From assembly GCF_000023225.1 (NCBI RefSeq), contig NC_013173.1, forward strand, positions 2,358,501-2,422,500: a stretch of 64,000 nucleotides of DNA, given 5' to 3'. Origin of the DNA: Desulfomicrobium baculatum DSM 4028. Its GTDB lineage: Bacteria; Desulfobacterota; Desulfovibrionia; Desulfovibrionales; Desulfomicrobiaceae. The notes under the pieces were generated by a model. It saw nothing but the letters and a program-made list of their open reading frames with translations, was not told where the DNA came from and did not search any database. Of the stretch, positions 3,627 to 19,508 are shown in pieces (position 1 is the first letter of the stretch; every line of letters starts with the position of its first letter). The translations under genes and the position numbers were made by a program.

Positions 3627-4181
3627 TCATTTCTCCAGTCCCACTTCCGCCACTCTTCGATACTCCGGCCCGGAGGACTTCAGGATGCTCTGCCAGAGCA
3701 CGACATGACTCACCGTGAACGCAGGCCAATCCCTCTTCAAATCTACGAGCAGACCGGACCAATCGTCGCTTCGCATGGCGGCCTTGACCCGGGCCACGGT
3801 CAGGTGCGCGGCAAAGGGTTTCGACTCGGCCACAAACCCGGCCTGAGCCAATCCTCCATCAAGTTCCTCAAAATACGCCGCGCACTCCTCGCGCCCCTGG
3901 CGCAAACCGACCCAGATCACACGCGGCGCGCCTTTGGGAGGAAAAAAACCGCCCGCGCCCCCCTGCATCTCAAAACTTCCCCGAGCCGCCTCCCGCATCG
4001 CCTGGACAATGGCCACAACCCTATCCTCATCCACTTCGCCCAGAAACTTGAGCGTCACATGAGCCAGATCCGGCCGCACCCACGACATCTTCGAAGTCAG
4101 ACGCTTTTTCCACGCCTCTTGAATCCTGCCAATGATTTGCGCGTACTCGCCGGGAAGGGGGATGCCTATGAAGAGACGCAT
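3627..4181 (-). CDS. thpR: RNA 2',3'-cyclic phosphodiesterase (ThpR/LigT)
   Basis: A 184-residue 2H phosphoesterase. Two HxT motifs, HVTLKF (about residue 47) and HLTVAR (about residue 130), form the paired catalytic histidines of the family. The N-terminus MRLFIGIPLP matches the usual start. The family hydrolyses 2',3'-cyclic phosphate ends of RNA. A ribosome-binding site (GGAGCGG) precedes the ATG. It is convergent with the AOR gene. A repeat-rich 440-bp spacer separates it from pepA upstream on the same strand. Confidence 0.85.
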   Translation of the reverse strand: MRLFIGIPLPGEYAQIIGRIQEAWKKRLTSKMSWVRPDLAHVTLKFLGEVDEDRVVAIVQAMREAARGSFEMQGGAGGFFPPKGAPRVIWVGLRQGREECAAYFEELDGGLAQAGFVAESKPFAAHLTVARVKAAMRSDDWSGLLVDLKRDWPAFTVSHVVLWQSILKSSGPEYRRVAEVGLEK

Positions 4182-4227
4182 GGATACCGCTCCGATAGAT
4201 TTTCTTCACGCCGCCGAAAAGACATGG

Positions 4228-4247
4228 ATCCCCGCCTGCGCGGGGAT
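4228..4247. repeat. REP-like short palindrome
   Basis: ATCCCCGC and GCGGGGAT form a perfect 8-bp stem with a CTGC loop. The consensus 'GGATCCCCGCCTGCGCGGGGATGACG' type is a common dispersed intergenic repeat in proteobacteria. Only one copy is seen here. Confidence 0.5.
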
Positions 4248-4340
4248 GACGCGGAGACGGAACGACTGGGATTCATTAGGAACGGACAAATGACAGGTGT
4301 GACTGCGCTCTTTCCATTTCCCCTTCCGCGCTGTCGCCAA

Positions 4341-4520
4341 GCGTGGGCGGGGTTGGGCGGAGACGGTGCGTCGACTGTCTGACCGAGCCAGGCATCGTTT
4401 GTTTCCCCGCTGCTGGTCCGCCCAAAGCGCATGCCGATGTTCTCTGCACGCAGCGGGGAAACATTACGAGGCCAGCGAGGGAGTTTCGACGCTCCGTCTC
4501 CGTCCAACCCTGGCCACGCG
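4341..4520. repeat. Large imperfect inverted repeat (~73-bp arms)
   Basis: The left arm (4341-4413) and the reverse complement of the right arm (4448-4520) align along almost their full length. Identity is strongest at the outer segment (GGTTGGGCGGAGACGG against GGTTGGACGGAGACGG) and the inner segment (GTTTCCCCGCTGC, 13 bp perfect). The 34-nt loop lies at 4414-4447. It could be a non-autonomous mobile element or a long structured RNA. No transposase or clear target-site duplication is seen. Confidence 0.65.
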
Positions 4521-4621
4521 TCCACCGACCAATCGCCAACTCCAAAACTGACTCCAACTCCGGTTCCGGCCAGCCCCGACCACGCGCCCGGCCAAGCGCC
4601 AACTCAATTCACACTCGCGCC

Positions 4622-6229: not shown

Positions 6230-7750
6230 ATGGAACAGAACCGGACTGTCGCCGTCCTCGGGGCCACGGGTTACATCGGAGGCCGTCTGGTTGCAGCGCT
6301 GCTGGAGCGCGGCTGGAATGTACGCGCTGTGGGCCGCAATCCGGAAAAGCTGCGCTGCAGGCCTTTCGCCGCCCATCCGAACGTGGAGCTGGTCCAGGCC
6401 GACGCCCTGGATCAGCCGGCGCTGACCGACGCCCTGCGCGGATGTCACGCGGCATACTATCTGGTCCATTCCATGTATCCCGGCGTGAAGAATTTTGAGG
6501 ATCGCGACAAGCGAGCCGCCATGATCATGCGTGATGCGGCCCGGGAAGCCGGTCTTGAGCGAATCCTGTATCTGGGAGGGCTTGGCGACACGGACAAGGA
6601 TTTGAGCGAACATCTCAAATCGCGCATGGAAGTCGGCGAGATTCTCGGCAGCGGGCCGGTCCCCCTGACCTGGCTGCGGGCGGCCATGATCATCGGTTCG
6701 GGCAGCGCGTCCTTTGAAATCCTGCGCTACCTGGTGGACCGCCTGCCGCTCATGATCACCCCGGCCTGGGTCAAGTCCCTGTGCCAGCCCATCGCCGTGA
6801 CCAATGTGCTCGAATACCTGGTCGGCTGCCTGGAACATCCCGAGACCTCCGGCCGCACCATGGACATCGGCGGCCCGGACATCCTCAGCTACCGCGATCT
6901 TTTCGACATCTATGCCCGCGTGGCCGGACTACGGCCGCGCATCATCATCCCGGTGCCGGTACTGACGCCGAGGCTCTCCTCCTACTGGATCCAGATGGTC
7001 ACCCCGGTCCCATCCAGCCTGTCGCGCCCCCTGGCCGAAGGACTGCGTAACAAGGTCGTATGCCGGGAAAACAGCATCCGGGAGCTTGTTCCGACCCGCC
7101 TACTCGGCTGCGAAGAGGCCATCACGAGGGCCCTGGACCGCACGGTTCGGCACGAGGTGGAAACCTGCTGGTCCGACGCGGGCCTGCAGCGCGTACCGGA
7201 ATGGATAGACTGCGGCGACGCACCCTACGCCGGAGGCACGGTGCTGGAATCGGCGCACACCCTGACCCTGGCCGCCACCCCGGCCCAGGTCTGGAATGTG
7301 ATCGTCCGCCTCGGCGGGGACGAGGGCTGGCTGCATGGGAACTGGATGTGGAAAATCCGCGGAGTGGCCGACAAACTCATCGGCGGCCCAGGCCTGCGTC
7401 GCGGGCGGCGTGATCCCGAAGAACTGCGCGTCGGTGACGCCCTGGACTTCTGGCGGGTGCTGGTCGTCGAGGAAAATCGCCGCCTGCGCCTGCTGGCCGA
7501 AATGAAACTGCCGGGCGAAGCGCTGCTCCAGTTCGATATTGATGAAGAGGACCCAGGCCGCACCAGATTGACCCTGCGCGCCCGTTTCCTGCCCCGGGGA
7601 TTGTGGGGCATGATCTACTGGTATCCGCTCATACCTGTGCACGGCCCGCTCTTCCGGGGCATGCTCACGGCTCTGGCCCGCAAGATTGGAGGAAAAATTC
7701 TTTTCGGACCCGTCACCCCACCCAAGGAGGGCTCGCAATGCCGACTCTGA
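6230..7750 (+). CDS. NAD(P)-binding SDR fused to DUF2867
   Basis: A 506-residue two-domain protein. Residues about 5-330 form an extended short-chain dehydrogenase/NmrA-like Rossmann domain with VLGATGYIGGRLVAALLERG as the dinucleotide-binding loop. The C-terminal ~160 residues match the DUF2867 type, a START-like domain often fused to such dehydrogenases (WNVIVRLGGDEGWLHGNWMW). Function is unknown; binding of a hydrophobic ligand with redox chemistry is plausible. CAGGAG precedes the ATG. The 3' end overlaps the next gene by 13 bases, so the two are likely co-translated. Confidence 0.8.
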   Translation: MEQNRTVAVLGATGYIGGRLVAALLERGWNVRAVGRNPEKLRCRPFAAHPNVELVQADALDQPALTDALRGCHAAYYLVHSMYPGVKNFEDRDKRAAMIMRDAAREAGLERILYLGGLGDTDKDLSEHLKSRMEVGEILGSGPVPLTWLRAAMIIGSGSASFEILRYLVDRLPLMITPAWVKSLCQPIAVTNVLEYLVGCLEHPETSGRTMDIGGPDILSYRDLFDIYARVAGLRPRIIIPVPVLTPRLSSYWIQMVTPVPSSLSRPLAEGLRNKVVCRENSIRELVPTRLLGCEEAITRALDRTVRHEVETCWSDAGLQRVPEWIDCGDAPYAGGTVLESAHTLTLAATPAQVWNVIVRLGGDEGWLHGNWMWKIRGVADKLIGGPGLRRGRRDPEELRVGDALDFWRVLVVEENRRLRLLAEMKLPGEALLQFDIDEEDPGRTRLTLRARFLPRGLWGMIYWYPLIPVHGPLFRGMLTALARKIGGKILFGPVTPPKEGSQCRL

Positions 7751-8240: not shown

Positions 8241-8279
8241 ATTCCCTGATCCTGGACACCAAGGCCATAATCAGGGAAT
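8241..8279. terminator. Stem-loop after PNPOx-like gene
   Basis: ATTCCCTGAT and ATCAGGGAAT pair perfectly (10 bp) around a 19-nt loop, followed by ATTTC. The T-run is weak, so it may be a terminator or an mRNA-stabilising element between two units. Confidence 0.5.
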
Positions 8280-8346
8280 ATTTCAAGAAACAAACCAGAA
8301 CCGACGCATGCAGCCAAGGGTTTGCTGCCTAGGCAAGGAGAATATC

Positions 8347-9297
8347 ATGAACCGACCCATCCGGCTGGGTGTCAGCCGTTGCCTGCTCGGGGACAAGGTC
8401 CGTTACGACGGGGGGCACAAGCACGACCCCTTTCTGACCAAGACCCTGGGCGAATATGTGGAATACGTCCCGGTCTGTCCGGAGGTGGAATGCGGTTTGC
8501 CCATTCCGCGAGAAGCCCTGCGTCTGGTGGGTGATCCGGATTCCCCGCGCCTTCTGACCCAAAAAACCCGCGTCGACCACACCAAGCGCATGCAGGACTG
8601 GGCCGCGGGTCGTCTGGCCGAGCTGGAAAACGAAAACCTGTGCGGCTTCATCTTCAAGAGTAAATCCCCGTCCAGCGGCATGGAACGGGTCAAAGTCTAT
8701 TCGGAATCGGGCAACCTTGCCGGCCAGTCCGTGGGCATCTTCGCGCGCATGTTCATGGAGCGCTTTCCCCTTCTGCCCGTGGAGGAGGAGGGCCGCCTGC
8801 ACGACGTGCACCTGCGCGAAAATTTCATCGACCGCATCTTCGTGCTCCGCCGCTACCGCGATACGCTCAAAGGCGGTCAGAACCTCGGCAACCTGATCAC
8901 CTTCCATACGCGGCACAAACTCCAGATCCTGGCCCACAGCCCCGAAATCTATCGGGCCATGGGCAGGCTGGTGGCGAGCGGCAAGTCCATGCCCAAGGAG
9001 CAGCTTTTCAAAAACTACCACGAACATCTCATGACCGCGATGCGCATGAAGGCCACTCCGCCTAAACACCGCAACGTGCTGCAGCACATCATGGGCTACT
9101 TCAAGAACGATCTGCTCCCGGATGAAAAGCAGGAACTGCTCGACCTGATCAACCAGTACGCGCGCGGCGTGCTGCCACTCATTGTTCCCGTGACCCTGCT
9201 CAACCACTATGTGCTCAAATACGAGGAATTCTACCTGCAGAACCAGACGTATCTCAGGCCTCACCCCCTTGAACTCAAGTTGTGCAACCACGCCTAG
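8347..9297 (+). CDS. DUF523-DUF1722 (YbgA-like) protein
   Basis: A 316-residue cytoplasmic protein. The N-terminal ~150 residues are DUF523, with the signature LGVSRCLLGDKVRYDGGHK and the CPEVECGLPIPRE Cys-containing loop. The C-terminal half is DUF1722/YbgA (YRDTLKGGQNLGNLITFHTRHKL). The biochemical role is not firmly known; in several bacteria the domains occur beside photolyase or stress genes. AAGGAG lies 6 nt before the ATG. It starts a run of six co-directional genes. Confidence 0.8.
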   Translation: MNRPIRLGVSRCLLGDKVRYDGGHKHDPFLTKTLGEYVEYVPVCPEVECGLPIPREALRLVGDPDSPRLLTQKTRVDHTKRMQDWAAGRLAELENENLCGFIFKSKSPSSGMERVKVYSESGNLAGQSVGIFARMFMERFPLLPVEEEGRLHDVHLRENFIDRIFVLRRYRDTLKGGQNLGNLITFHTRHKLQILAHSPEIYRAMGRLVASGKSMPKEQLFKNYHEHLMTAMRMKATPPKHRNVLQHIMGYFKNDLLPDEKQELLDLINQYARGVLPLIVPVTLLNHYVLKYEEFYLQNQTYLRPHPLELKLCNHA

Positions 9298-9318
9298 GGC
9301 ACGCCGCAGGAGACGCGC

Positions 9319-10293
9319 ATGACGAACGCTTATGAGGTCATCAGCCGCTTCGACCCGGACTTCCCGCGCAAGCGGGCCGGACAGCTGCTCACCGACACCT
9401 CGGAATTCATGAACATCAGTTACGGCGATGTGATCGATCTGAATGGGAAATATTTCCTGGTGCTGCGGGACGAAAAAGAGCGCAGCTTCGGCGTGGAAGA
9501 TCCCAAATATTGGGTCAAGCGATGCCGGGAGCTGTCCACGGGAGAACGAAAGATCCTGAAGCTGGTTTTTTACGAGCGCTTCCCCGTCTCCATGGGCAGC
9601 ATGGAGATCGAGTGCTTTCGCAGCCCGCGCAAGGAGGCGCGCATCCTGGACCTGGTCAAGGGAGACATGCGCTTTATGCAGGGCTACTCCCACGATGATG
9701 CGGCCGGGAACAACGTGCGCGTCCTCGACGTGGTCAAGGGCAATCTGCTCTCCCTGCACATCGACCGCCTGGAGGCCGATCATAAAACCTATTTTTTTGA
9801 AATGCTGCCCGATATTCTGGATAAATTCGCCGCAGCCTGCCGGGCCATCGAATTCCTGCACAAAAATGGCGAGAACCATGGCGATATCCGCCGCGATCAC
9901 CTCTGGCTGGAACAGGGCACGGACAACTATGTCTGGATTGATTTCGACTACACCTACGAGTTCCAGGAAAACCCCTTCGGCCTGGACATCTTTGGCCTCG
10001 GCAACCTGCTTTTGTTCCTGGTCGGCAAGAAATTCTGCACCACCTTCAACATCCCTCGCCCGGATTTTGACGGCAAGGCGGATGTTTCCTTTGAAGCGGC
10101 GGATTTTTCCCTGCTTTTCAGGAACCGCCTGGCCAACCTGCGCAAGGTATACCCCTATGTGCCCCATGCGTTGAACAACGTGCTCATGCACTTTTCCTCC
10201 GCCTCTGAGGTGTTCTATTTCACTGTCGGAGAAATGCTTGAAGACCTTACGCCCTGCATCGACGAAATTCGTCGCGGGCGACTCAACACGTAA
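9319..10293 (+). CDS. Protein-kinase-fold protein
   Basis: A 324-residue protein with a kinase-like C-terminal lobe: HGDIRRDH (residues 187-194) corresponds to the catalytic loop HxDxxxxN, and IDFD (207-210) to the metal-binding DFG. Asp189 and Asp208 are thus kept. The N-terminal lobe is unusual and no glycine-rich loop is obvious. It could phosphorylate a protein or small molecule, or be an adapted pseudokinase. No membrane segment is present. It lies 21 nt after the DUF523 gene and 9 nt before a universal stress protein gene, suggesting one stress-related operon. Confidence 0.65.
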   Translation: MTNAYEVISRFDPDFPRKRAGQLLTDTSEFMNISYGDVIDLNGKYFLVLRDEKERSFGVEDPKYWVKRCRELSTGERKILKLVFYERFPVSMGSMEIECFRSPRKEARILDLVKGDMRFMQGYSHDDAAGNNVRVLDVVKGNLLSLHIDRLEADHKTYFFEMLPDILDKFAAACRAIEFLHKNGENHGDIRRDHLWLEQGTDNYVWIDFDYTYEFQENPFGLDIFGLGNLLLFLVGKKFCTTFNIPRPDFDGKADVSFEAADFSLLFRNRLANLRKVYPYVPHALNNVLMHFSSASEVFYFTVGEMLEDLTPCIDEIRRGRLNT

Positions 10294-10302
10294 GGAGAAA
10301 TC

Positions 10303-10794
10303 ATGGACCCGAAAAAAATTCTCATTGCCGTGGATGCTTCGGACAACGCAGCCCGCGCCGTGACCTATGTCGCCGAACTGCTGGGAGCCAGCACGGGCTT
10401 TCTGATAACGGTCCTGTATATCGAACGCCCGCCCAATCGCGACCTGTATCCCGACGAGGCCTCCTGGGTCGAGGCGGGTCAAACCCAGGAGCTGCGCATC
10501 CGCACCTTCCTGCAGCAGGCCAAGTCCAACCTGACCGGGCAGGGCATTCCGCCGGACGCGGTAACCATCTCCTACGTTCCGCATTGCCAATCCCCGGTGA
10601 ATCCGGCGGCGCAGCAGTGCAGCATCGGCACGTCCATTGCCCGCGACATCCTGCAGGTGCAGCAGCAGGGCGATTTCGGGACCCTGGTCATCGGTCGCCG
10701 GGGAGTGTCCCGCGCGGAAGAGTTTCTTTTCGGCAGCGTGACCACCAAGGTCACCCATCTGGCCAAAGACTGCACCGTCTGGGTGGTGCAATAA
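10303..10794 (+). CDS. Universal stress protein (UspA family)
   Basis: A 163-residue single-domain USP. It starts with KKILIAVDASDNAARAVTYV and ends with the nucleotide-binding type loop VIGRRGVSRAEEFLFGSVTTKV followed by CTVWVV. The spacing of the G-2x-G-9x-G(S/T) motif suggests an ATP-binding member. AAGGAG lies 6 nt before the ATG, 9 nt after the kinase-fold gene, so the genes are almost certainly co-transcribed. It probably acts in stress survival; the signal is unknown. Confidence 0.88.
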   Translation: MDPKKILIAVDASDNAARAVTYVAELLGASTGFLITVLYIERPPNRDLYPDEASWVEAGQTQELRIRTFLQQAKSNLTGQGIPPDAVTISYVPHCQSPVNPAAQQCSIGTSIARDILQVQQQGDFGTLVIGRRGVSRAEEFLFGSVTTKVTHLAKDCTVWVVQ

Positions 10795-10811
10795 TTCATA
10801 CGGAGGAAAAC

Positions 10812-11153
10812 ATGCCCTGCCTTGAACTTACGACCAACGTGCGCGTTCAGGACAAGAACACGCTCATGCGCTCTCTCTCCGCCTGCGTCTGCACGGAGCT
10901 TTGCAAGGCCGAAACCTATATGATGGTCATGGTCAAGGACGAGATGCCCATGCTGTTCGGAGGCAACGACGAACCCGTGGCCCACATGAGCCTGCGCGCC
11001 CTGGGCCTCAAAGATGACCTGATCCGGAAACTTGCCGGCGCGCTGACGGAGATGATGCACACGGAACTGGGCATTGAAAGCCAGCGCGTCTATATCGCCT
11101 TCACGGACGTGGACCCCGGCATGTGGGCCTGGGACGGCCGCACCTTCGCCTGA
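10812..11153 (+). CDS. MIF/tautomerase-superfamily protein
   Basis: A 113-residue protein of the macrophage migration inhibitory factor branch of the tautomerase superfamily. The Met-Pro start (MPCLELTTNV) provides the N-terminal proline that is the catalytic base once Met is removed. Further marks are MMVMVKDEMPMLFGG and the tail RVYIAFTDVDPGMWAWDGRTF, close to the MIF C-terminus. The physiological substrate in bacteria is unknown. GGAGG lies 6-7 nt upstream. It follows the universal stress gene by 17 nt. Confidence 0.85.
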   Translation: MPCLELTTNVRVQDKNTLMRSLSACVCTELCKAETYMMVMVKDEMPMLFGGNDEPVAHMSLRALGLKDDLIRKLAGALTEMMHTELGIESQRVYIAFTDVDPGMWAWDGRTFA

Positions 11154-11241
11154 CCCGGCGTCTTGCCTGCTGCGGGAGCCTCGTGTAAAGGAGCCGGGCG
11201 TCGGGACGACTTCGTCCCGGCACCATCCAAACGAGGTATCC

Positions 11242-11685
11242 ATGACAGAAAAGAACTACGCCCAGAGCATCGCCGGCGACCTGTTCCACATGATCGAGTC
11301 CGCCCGGGAACAAGGGGTGAACGTGGACGCGGGCTTTCGCAACCAGGCCATGTCCAGTCCGAGCATGACCCTGACCTACATGTTCCTGACCAAGAACGAC
11401 CTGCTGAAAGTCCCGGCTCTGCCCGCCCAGGTCAAGCAGCAGGTCCGCCGCTCCAACGCCATGGCCGTCATCGAGCTGGCGAACGCCAAAGGCGTGAAGC
11501 AGACTGCGGGCATCCACCTGATCTGGTCCAGCGCCACGGCCTGCTCCAAGATCGAGTCCGAGGCCCAGATGCTGGAAGGCATCCAGATTCAGGGACTGGC
11601 GGCCTTCACCGCCCAGATCAAGAGCACGCTCAGAAACGATATTCCACGCACCATGGACCAGCAGGTTCCGGCCGACGCAAAGTAG
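11242..11685 (+). CDS. Hypothetical protein, 147 aa
   Basis: The family is not recognised. The protein is soluble, Ala/Gln/Met-rich, and mainly helical by composition, with two cysteines at most and no signal peptide. GAGG lies 6 nt before the ATG. The 88-bp spacer before it contains GGGACGACTTCGTCCC, a small palindrome that might be an attenuator or internal terminator. Its position between a MIF-like gene and DUF445 suggests it belongs to the same stress-type cluster. Confidence 0.6.
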   Translation: MTEKNYAQSIAGDLFHMIESAREQGVNVDAGFRNQAMSSPSMTLTYMFLTKNDLLKVPALPAQVKQQVRRSNAMAVIELANAKGVKQTAGIHLIWSSATACSKIESEAQMLEGIQIQGLAAFTAQIKSTLRNDIPRTMDQQVPADAK

Positions 11686-11733
11686 GGACGCGGCCCGTCC
11701 CGCTGGATTCGCATTCGCCTTCCGGAGATTTTC

Positions 11734-12330
11734 ATGCTTTTGAAACTGTGCTTTTCGACGCTGATCTGCGCCTTTATCGGCTGGATCACCAATTTCATCG
11801 CCATCAAGATGCTCTTCCATCCGCGCCGCCCGGTGCAGATCGGCAGCCTGACGGTGCAGGGCATTTTCCCCAAACGCCAGAAGGCGCTGGCCATGAACCT
11901 GGCGGCAGTAATCGAAGGCGAACTGCTGTCCCACGACGACATCCAAAGCGCCATGCGGCGGCCGGAATTCGCGGCCAAAATCAAGGACAAGATCGAGGAT
12001 GGATTCGCCGAGTTCCTGTCCAAACGCCTCGGGACCCTCAGCCCCATGATCGCCATGTTTCTGGACGGCCCCATGATGGACAAGATCAAGGGGCTGCTGG
12101 ACAAGGAACTGGACCGCATTGTGCCGGGCTTGCTTGAAACCGCCACCAATGAACTGGAAACGTCCCTGGATTTCAGGAAGCTCATCCAGGACAAGATCGA
12201 AAACCTCTCCATGGAACGGCTTGAGGTCTTGCTCATGTCCATCATGTCCAAGGAGTTCAGGTTCATCGAAGTGGTGGGAGCGGTGCTCGGCGCCATGATC
12301 GGGCTGATCCAGGGGCTGATTTTTTTCTAA
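11734..12330 (+). CDS. DUF445 membrane protein
   Basis: A 198-residue protein with the DUF445 (YheB/YjiN-type) hallmark GWITNFIAIKMLFHPRRPV directly after an N-terminal membrane segment, then GIFPKRQKALAMNLAAVIEG. A second hydrophobic segment ends the protein (VVGAVLGAMIGLIQGLIFF), so both ends are membrane-anchored with a helical soluble middle. Function is unknown. GGAG precedes the ATG. It is the last gene of the 8.3-12.4 kb run and is followed by a 9-bp hairpin. Confidence 0.82.
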   Translation: MLLKLCFSTLICAFIGWITNFIAIKMLFHPRRPVQIGSLTVQGIFPKRQKALAMNLAAVIEGELLSHDDIQSAMRRPEFAAKIKDKIEDGFAEFLSKRLGTLSPMIAMFLDGPMMDKIKGLLDKELDRIVPGLLETATNELETSLDFRKLIQDKIENLSMERLEVLLMSIMSKEFRFIEVVGAVLGAMIGLIQGLIFF

Positions 12331-17377: not shown

Positions 17378-18655
17378 TCACACGGACCGCACAGGCCGCA
17401 CGTGAAAACGGCAACTTCGATCCTGGGCCAGCACCGCGCCTCCTCCCACATCGACGAACCACGCCGATGTATAGCTGCGCCGGTCCCCTGTCCAGACCCA
17501 TAAGTACCTGCCCTCAAAGGGCCTGTGGCAGAACTCCACCAATCCCTGTCCGGGCCGCAGCAAGGAGACGACCTCCTCCACCGTGGGCATTCGCCAGTCA
17601 TCGGCCACGGAGGCCACGCCCTCGTCCCAGGTCATGGGCCAGGAGGAGACGGGGCCCCAGACCAGCCCCGTGCAGCGGTCCAGCCAGCCGTCTGCGACCT
17701 CTTCCAGCTCGGCCTCGTGAAACTTCAGCGGGCGGTACAGCTCGTCCAGAAAATCAAAAGGACGCGGCCCCACGCCGGTGCGTAGCGGCACCGAACGCAG
17801 CGTGCCCATGACCGTGCACTCGGGCTCGGCCAGCACGCAATCGTTGTCCGAGCGGCTTTGCAGGTCCTCATCCAGAGAGTCCAGGGCCGCGCGCATGACG
17901 CCTGCATCCTGAAAACGCGCAGCGGGATCAGTAGCCAGGGCGCGGATGAAAAATTCCCGCCACGTCTGGGAAAAAAGAGGCAAATCCGCCAACCCGTCCA
18001 CGGGCAGCAGCCCGCTGACCAGACGATGCAGAACCACCCCGACGGCATACAGGTCGGCCCTTTCGCCCGCATTCTCCGGATTCTCCTCCTGTTCCGGCGC
18101 GGCATAATAGGGAGAACCGATTTTGAGGCCCCGAGGCTTGACCCAGGCCTCGCCGCGCAGCCGCGACAGCCCGAGGTCGATGAGTTTGATGGTGCCGTCG
18201 CCGGCGAGCATCAGGTTGCCGGGTTTGACGTCGAGATGGACGATGCCGAGGCCGTGCAGATACTCCAGCCCGTCAAGGGTCTGGCGCACAAAATCAAGGG
18301 CCGTGCGCGGCGGGACAATCCGTGTCGCGTTCTCCACCACCCGGCCTTCACCGATGAGATCCCCGACATTCATGCACAGATACTCAAGAACCATGAACGG
18401 CCGCCCCCGGTCCTCGTCCAGATCCCAGACCGAGGCAATATTGCGATGATCGCACGAGCCCAGGAGCCGCGCCTCACGCAAAAATGCGGACCGCACTTTG
18501 TCCTCACCCATAAGCTCATTCAACAGCTCATGAGGCTGCAGGAGCTTCAAGGCCATGACCCGTCCCAGGGCCTGATGTCCGACCTTGTAGACGCCGCCCA
18601 TTCCGCCCCGGCCAAGGGTTCCCAGGACATTGTAGCGACCTATCCTCATGGTCAC
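17378..18655 (-). CDS. Ser/Thr protein kinase with C-terminal DUF1566 domain
   Basis: A 425-residue Hanks-type kinase. Glycine loop [12 protein letters not shown], Lys in MALKLL, catalytic loop [12 protein letters not shown] (HLD replaces HRD) and DLG for DFG are all present near residues 14-170. The C-terminal ~110 residues are a DUF1566 (Lcl) domain: [32 protein letters not shown] and FHVRPVR. No transmembrane segment is seen, so the kinase is probably soluble. The GTG at 18655 has GAGG 5 nt upstream; an ATG two codons later is also possible. It overlaps the stop of the upstream phosphoesterase gene. Confidence 0.85.
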
Positions 18656-19371
18656 CAAAGCCTCGTCGCGTAATAGTCGGGAAACCCCCGTTCGCGGATT
18701 TTGGCGACGGTGCGTTCAATATCGTAGGGAACGAAGCGGACCTCGATACGACCCGTTTGCGTATTCCAAAGCAGATATTTGGCGTTGTTGTTCCCGTCCC
18801 GGGGTTGTCCCACGCTGCCCGCGTTGACTATGCAGGGGCGCCCGTCCAGCATGAAATTTTCCCGGCCAAGATCCCTGCGCTCCACTTCGGTTCCGGTCCA
18901 GCAGGCCAGGCCCAGTTCATGAGTGTGCCCGACAAAAGTCAGCGCCTCACCCCGGGCAAACCAGCTTTCAAGGGCCTCGTCATCGACACTGAACAGATAG
19001 GTAGTCACGCTGTCAGGCGGAAACCCGTGCACGAACCTGGCCCCGGCCAGACACACGAAACGCGGCAAGGCATTGATGTACGCCAGGCTCGCGGAAGACA
19101 GCAGGCTCGCGGTCAGTCCCAGCCCCTTCTGCGCCGTGGAGTTGAACCAGGCTCGTTCCGTCGCATTGACGATGCCCAGTTCATGGTTGCCCATGCAGCA
19201 CAGCACGTCATGCTCGCGCACCGAAAAAACGGCCTCCTCCGGATTCGGCCCATAGCCGACCACATCCCCCAGGCTGACGATGCGGTCGACAGGCAACGGC
19301 GCCATGTCCTGCCAGACAGCTTCCAGGGCCTCGATGTTGCCGTGAATATCCGAAAGAATCGCGACCAGCAT
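18652..19371 (-). CDS. Metallophosphoesterase (calcineurin-like)
   Basis: A 239-residue calcineurin-type phosphoesterase with the dinuclear metal motifs SDIHGN (residues 8-13), [10 protein letters not shown] and GNHE, and later GHTHELG. Members hydrolyse phosphoesters, including phosphoproteins and nucleotides. The ATG at 19371 is used because GGAG lies 6 nt upstream; codons further upstream lack such a site. Its end overlaps the kinase gene, so kinase and phosphatase-like protein are co-translated. This suggests opposing activities, though that is inference. No signal peptide is present. Confidence 0.85.
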
Positions 19372-19508
19372 GCATTCTCCAAAAGGGACGGAGGGCTTTA
19401 CCCCCCTTTTCATTTAGTGAAACCGATGTTAAGCGATCGCTCAACGCTGCCGAATTATTTATAGTACAATCTCAATATTTCAAAATGATAGCAATAAAGG
19501 GTTCACTC

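Follow-up and report, generated by a model that had tools for sequence, protein, structure and literature searches.

Genes for a universal stress protein (USP) and for an unusual kinase-fold protein (KIN) are linked far beyond chance, and the pair looks like an undescribed stress-signaling device of sulfate reducers. Both genes lie in a row of six in the window analyzed here, a stretch of 64,000 nucleotides within the single-contig genome (3,942,657 bp) of Desulfomicrobium baculatum DSM 4028. Few stress proteins are as common as USPs, several of which are phosphorylated. KIN and USP, whose gains and losses coincide, offer a well-defined pair for experiments, and the finding points to a signaling family of sulfate reducers that has no name in Pfam or NCBIfam. 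If KIN indeed phosphorylates the USP beside it, the genes themselves would reveal the cognate kinase of a bacterial USP.

KIN was searched for in a sample of 150 genomes of the order and was present in 57 of them, distributed over 19 of 36 genera. In all 40 regions fetched from these 57 genomes, a USP gene is located directly downstream of KIN on the same strand. A wider scan for relatives, from which the best 80 of 352 were taken (those at 83–86% identity among them being mostly named Desulfomicrobium), was combined with a sample of the phylum, and here the USP directly follows KIN in 105 of 110 loci. Over all 151 KIN loci, the USP gene is downstream in 145, with gaps of 5–210 bp (median 29), and directly upstream in 2. 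Because loci from the different searches overlap in part, the linkage was also counted by distinct kinase sequence, and 123 of 127 distinct kinases have a USP beside them. Two of the four remaining kinases are cut by the end of the contig, one of which still shows the start of a USP; the third is followed by unreadable bases where the USP is expected; and the fourth has its USP ∼1.1 kb upstream. At five loci the USP is flanked by two kinases (KIN-USP-KIN2), and the K, E, and D residues are kept in both. No single open reading frame containing both domains was observed in the loci scanned. Among the resolved clusters from 106 clustered loci, no further neighbor of the pair recurs widely: clusters beyond KIN and USP comprise at most 9 loci each, the exceptions being two clusters with 24 and 12 loci, whose families, named by sight, are common ones, and a mixed cluster of 35 loci, in which the placed members are mostly open reading frames on the opposite strand.

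The two genes are also inherited together. Upon searching with a profile of the KIN-linked USPs, some USP was found in 149 of the 150 order genomes, and the scores split into two groups. With a cut at 130 bits, which was set once the scores were known to jump from 117 to 132 bits (paralogues score 117 bits or less), the linked type of USP is present in 57 of 57 genomes with KIN vs 1 of 93 without it (Fisher p 5e-41, a value that ignores the kinship of the genomes and depends on a post hoc cut). The single exception, genome G004, carries a linked-type USP alone behind a gene named by sight as a P-type ATPase. KIN and USP were lost together in G024, a genome of the same genus as the window: KIN is missing there, and all that is left of USP is its final 16 codons. 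Taken together, adjacency and co-inheritance indicate that KIN and USP almost certainly form one functional unit.

To judge from the phylum sample of 297 genomes, the pair is carried by many, mainly sulfate-respiring bacteria. KIN was found in 51 of these genomes, one of which (G172, E 3e-4) was dropped before dsrA was counted. A dsrA match over the cut-off was obtained for 48 of the 50 KIN genomes vs 95 of the 247 without KIN (p 2e-15, kinship ignored), and the two KIN genomes lacking such a match are 66%–67% complete. On its own, dsrA is not a predictor of KIN. Spread of KIN by plasmids finds no support, a search of 72,556 plasmid records having given no match. Models of anti-phage defense gave no match for KIN, USP, or the MIF-family protein encoded next to them.

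The first-pass annotation had described six co-directional genes at positions 8347–12330 of the window, the first four tightly packed. All six are real and placed as described (Table 1), and the gaps along the row are, in order, 21, 9, 17, 88, and 48 bp, the first three of which bear out the tight packing. By Pfam, an SDR-DUF2867 gene and a PPOX gene are located upstream of the row and an Fe/Mn-SOD gene downstream. The columns of the promoter-like site that precedes the first gene are conserved across nine aligned genomes of the genus. A promoter scan found 2 sites against 1.7 expected from shuffled sequence, which is no excess, so the argument for a promoter rests on this conservation, by which the row probably has a transcription start of its own.

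Table 1. Genes of the row and the site preceding it, in window coordinates
Feature	Position	Strand	Basis
Promoter-like site TGGACA-N18-AATATT	8253–8282	+	Upstream of the first gene of the row
TudS-DUF1722 (RudS-like) gene	8347–9297	+	Pfam PF04463 (TudS, 146 bits) and PF08349 (DUF1722, 151 bits)
KIN, 324 aa, predicted divergent Hanks-type kinase fold	9319–10293	+	AF2, VIA, invariant residues
USP, universal stress protein with nucleotide motif	10303–10794	+	Pfam Usp, 58.8 bits (cut-off 24)
MIF-family tautomerase (putative)	10812–11153	+	Pfam MIF, 60.6 bits (cut-off 22); PDB relatives 8ap3, 2xcz
147-aa protein, no family	11242–11685	+	No Pfam match at E up to 0.1, no NCBIfam match
DUF445 protein	11734–12330	+	Pfam DUF445, 96.6 bits

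The six genes had further been proposed to constitute one stress pathway joining phosphorylation to tautomerase chemistry. The short gaps, the single conserved promoter-like site, and a gene order that is conserved in the genus (10 regions, with MIF missing from one) would all suit such a pathway. However, the TudS-DUF1722, 147-aa, and DUF445 genes occur near KIN only in those 10 same-genus regions of the 40 with KIN, MIF in 9 of the 10, and none of the four is found near KIN in the 30 regions outside the genus. MIF itself is present in 30 of the 150 order genomes. Outside the genus there are 19 such genomes, 8 of which also have KIN; in all 8 MIF is unlinked, either on a different contig or separated from KIN by 316 kb or more. 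Moreover, the row of G024, from the SDR gene to the SOD gene, is otherwise intact, retaining the TudS-DUF1722, MIF, 147-aa, DUF445, and SOD genes without KIN and most of USP, so that the parts of the row are separable. The row as a general unit is thereby largely refuted, and a shared pathway of all six genes is very improbable. What survives of the proposal is the link between the kinase-fold protein and the USP, for which the first-pass criterion of conserved gene order holds; outside the genus the order is not conserved for the tautomerase and the three others, which are neighbors adjoining KIN-USP in one genus.

The identification of KIN as an unusual kinase, also made in the first pass, agrees with its predicted structure. 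Pfam gave no family for it at E values up to 0.1, and NCBIfam likewise none above its cut-off. With E values of 1 or less (the lowest being 2.6e-5), 15 of 34 KIN homologues match the Pkinase family (PF00069), the window protein not being among them. The AF2 model of KIN is of high confidence (pLDDT 90.4, pTM 0.87). Compared by VIA, it superimposes on Mycobacterium tuberculosis PknB with Z 17.1 and an rmsd of 4.2 over 229 aligned residues, and all 1000 chains compared are at Z of at least 8. A Foldseek search with the model gave 1587 matches at E 0.001, and the 50 matches listed are all kinases or a pseudokinase. Sixteen residues are invariant in 127 of 127 KIN homologues: K81, E106, H187, G188, D189, R191, D193, H194, W206, D208, F209, D210, D223, D262, R270, and N273. 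Among these, K81, E106, D189, and D208 correspond to the β3 lysine, the αC glutamate, the catalytic aspartate, and the metal-binding aspartate of Hanks-type kinases; D189, H194, and D208 were placed by profile alignment to RNase L, and K81 and E106 by their position among the predicted strands and helices rather than by coordinates. What speaks for a kinase identity of KIN is thus the high-confidence fold prediction together with an invariant active-site pattern, not membership of a database family.

Analogous to the Hanks-type Ser/Thr kinases PknB, PknI, and YabT, to which its predicted fold is similar at Z 16–17 over ∼230 residues, KIN keeps the lysine, the glutamate, the aspartate of the HxD motif, and the metal-binding aspartate, together with a DxFGLG element resembling the F-helix motif. 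In contrast, its identity to the chains listed by VIA is only ∼14%–19%, it carries no extra sensor domain, and Pfam does not recognize the window protein. The catalytic loop reads HGD[IV]RxDH instead of HRDxKxxN, with His194 where the catalytic asparagine is expected, and D210 replaces the glycine of the DFG motif (DFD). Both substitutions are found in 127 of 127 homologues, and the family is accordingly best described as kinase-like, with most but not all of the canonical residues, to judge from the alignment. The activity of KIN is therefore not assured. A profile search of the PDB matched KIN best to the kinase-homology region of the ATP-binding pseudokinase RNase L, which likewise has DFD. 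KIN could then be a pseudokinase that binds ATP without transferring phosphate and acts as a nucleotide-dependent scaffold with USP. However, invariance of Lys81, Glu106, Asp189, Asp208, and Asp223 exceeds what ATP binding alone would need, and activity is known for some kinases in which one canonical residue is missing. A pseudokinase role is, on balance, unlikely.

The partner protein is a universal stress protein, apparently of the ATP-binding class, and is a putative nucleotide binder. The G2XG9XG(S/T) motif is present in the window USP as G131-x2-G134-x9-G144-S145 and in 46 of 48 sampled KIN-linked USPs. An EEF[LMI] signature was observed in 43 of the 48 sampled linked USPs vs 1 of 26 other USP domains. 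The linked USPs cluster in a tree, yet seven changes are needed to explain the linkage, two of them forced by well-supported branches; a single clade of linked USPs is not what the tree shows. Candidate phosphosites are located in and beside the nucleotide loop, at Ser/Thr136 (121 of 123 linked USPs), Ser145 (119 of 123), and Ser/Thr147 (123 of 123); such Ser/Thr residues are common in USPs generally.

Gene adjacency, co-inheritance, joint loss, the predicted kinase fold, the active-site residues, and the USP motif form the basis for reading KIN and USP as a dedicated signaling pair, in which the USP would be a substrate or a regulator of the putative kinase. We consider the chances of this reading to be even; phosphotransfer, the role of USP as a substrate, physical contact between the two proteins, the signal, and the output are what we infer within it. 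In the form we favor, KIN would use ATP as a protein kinase of the Hanks type, from a divergent family, with USP as its dedicated nucleotide-binding partner. KIN would most likely phosphorylate its USP, with positions 136, 145, and 147 as candidate sites, or otherwise form a complex with it. The nucleotide state of USP and its phosphorylation could then jointly control whether sulfate-reducing bacteria that face energy or oxidative stress turn on a response that protects them or slows their growth. That the pair is, specifically, a dedicated two-gene system of mainly sulfate-respiring bacteria, in which a kinase from a family outside current libraries phosphorylates its own USP, is a tentative proposal to which we assign somewhat less than an even chance. 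Alternatively, the USP may be a regulator rather than a substrate, sensing adenine nucleotides and switching KIN, whose targets would be elsewhere in the cell. The frequency of the nucleotide motif among linked USPs would fit such a role, as would the KIN-USP-KIN2 loci, which suggest one USP serving two kinases. Precedents are found in the excerpted text of PMC10003552, in which SaUspA stimulates a phosphatase and the USP domain of KdpD binds c-di-AMP. Among the resolved clusters, however, no target gene recurs beside the pair, leaving any output invisible, and we regard regulation without phosphorylation of the USP as unlikely, though less so than the pseudokinase.

An association of USPs with kinases is, as such, already known from the literature, both as fusions and in the form of USPs that are kinase targets or phosphatase partners; the pair of separate KIN and USP genes appears to be new. 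Fusion proteins of a kinase with a USP were described in rhizobia, Nitrosomonas, and plants (PMC1262709, in its excerpted text), and further fusions appear in the excerpt of PMC2877116. As in these fusions, a putative kinase would be joined with a USP in one unit; the pair differs in being two genes with the kinase first, in its other kinase subfamily, and in its occurrence in sulfate reducers. In tomato, a USP works with a kinase (SlRd2/CIPK6; PMC10003552, excerpt), and a USP bound to PP2A is reported in the excerpt of PMC7472852. For Rv2623 of M. tuberculosis, an ATP-binding USP that is phosphorylated, the excerpted text of PMC5549992 describes the kinase that acts on it in vivo as unknown. 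The KIN-linked USP resembles Rv2623 insofar as it is a predicted nucleotide binder with candidate phosphosites; unlike the USP beside KIN, no dedicated kinase partner gene for Rv2623 is described in that excerpt. A catalogue of 651 USPs of Desulfovibrionaceae (PMC8401546) describes no kinase partner gene in the main-text passages on kinases and gene neighbors, and the titles and abstract openings listed by literature searches contained no description of the KIN-USP pair.

The remaining genes of the row are of mixed character. The MIF-like protein is a putative tautomerase, with the domain over cut-off and a proline after the start methionine (MPCLEL), both traits of the MIF superfamily. The 147-aa protein is 74%–96% identical to its counterparts in eight other members of the genus; its AF2 model has a pLDDT of 75.6, and no fold in the PDB was matched at E 0.001. 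Two weak partial matches to CARF among the anti-phage models (E 0.002 and 0.008) were taken as chance. The DUF445 match falls in two stretches of the family model, whose 368 positions exceed the length of the window protein. The gene that opens the row can probably be assigned to the TudS-DUF1722 tRNA desulfidases, which are already known: as in RudS, a tRNA 4-thiouridine desulfidase whose gene is often within light-responsive operons (PMC11417400, excerpted text), a TudS domain is fused to DUF1722, with both Pfam models over cut-off. It differs from RudS, as described in that excerpt, at the third cysteine of the [4Fe-4S] cluster, which is a serine (SPSSG for SPSCG) in all 11 genus copies compared. 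The lone TudS protein of the same genome has SPSCG.

The divergent kinase-fold protein (KIN) and the universal stress protein (USP) encoded directly downstream of it are also found in other arrangements. At L050, L070, L137, L189 and L190, USP is followed by a second kinase of the family, giving the order KIN-USP-KIN2, and the catalytic loop of KIN2 differs from HGD[IV]RRDH, reading, for example, HGDINLDH. The order is reversed at L148 and L173, where KIN is directly preceded by USP and USP by a ketopantoate-reductase-like gene, named by sight. In the same-genus genome G024, KIN is gone and USP is reduced to 16 codons, with the rest of the row intact.

About 7 kb from KIN, the window encodes a Hanks kinase of canonical type that also carries an Lcl_C domain; together with a calcineurin-like phosphoesterase, whose gene overlaps its own, it forms a possible kinase-phosphatase pair.

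Features of the row, the window and the compared loci
Feature	Location	Strand	Remark
Linked-type USP without KIN	L192 (G004), 4048-4533	-	Behind P-type metal ATPase gene
Hanks kinase-Lcl_C; calcineurin-like phosphoesterase	Window 17378-18658; 18652-19413	-; -	Overlapping genes
Natural loss of KIN and most of USP	L188 (G024), around 7191-7277		
RudS-like protein gene	Window 8347-9297		Third [4Fe-4S] Cys to Ser
GC-rich inverted repeat CGGGACGA-CT-TCGTCCCG	Window 11190-11225		Between MIF and unknown gene

All 11 RudS-like copies compared from the genus carry the resulting SPSSG motif, and SPSCG is retained in a lone TudS encoded elsewhere in the same genome; the [4Fe-4S] cluster of the RudS-like protein is perhaps changed or lost. 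The inverted repeat, at which no T run is present, is perhaps an element of mRNA processing or attenuation.
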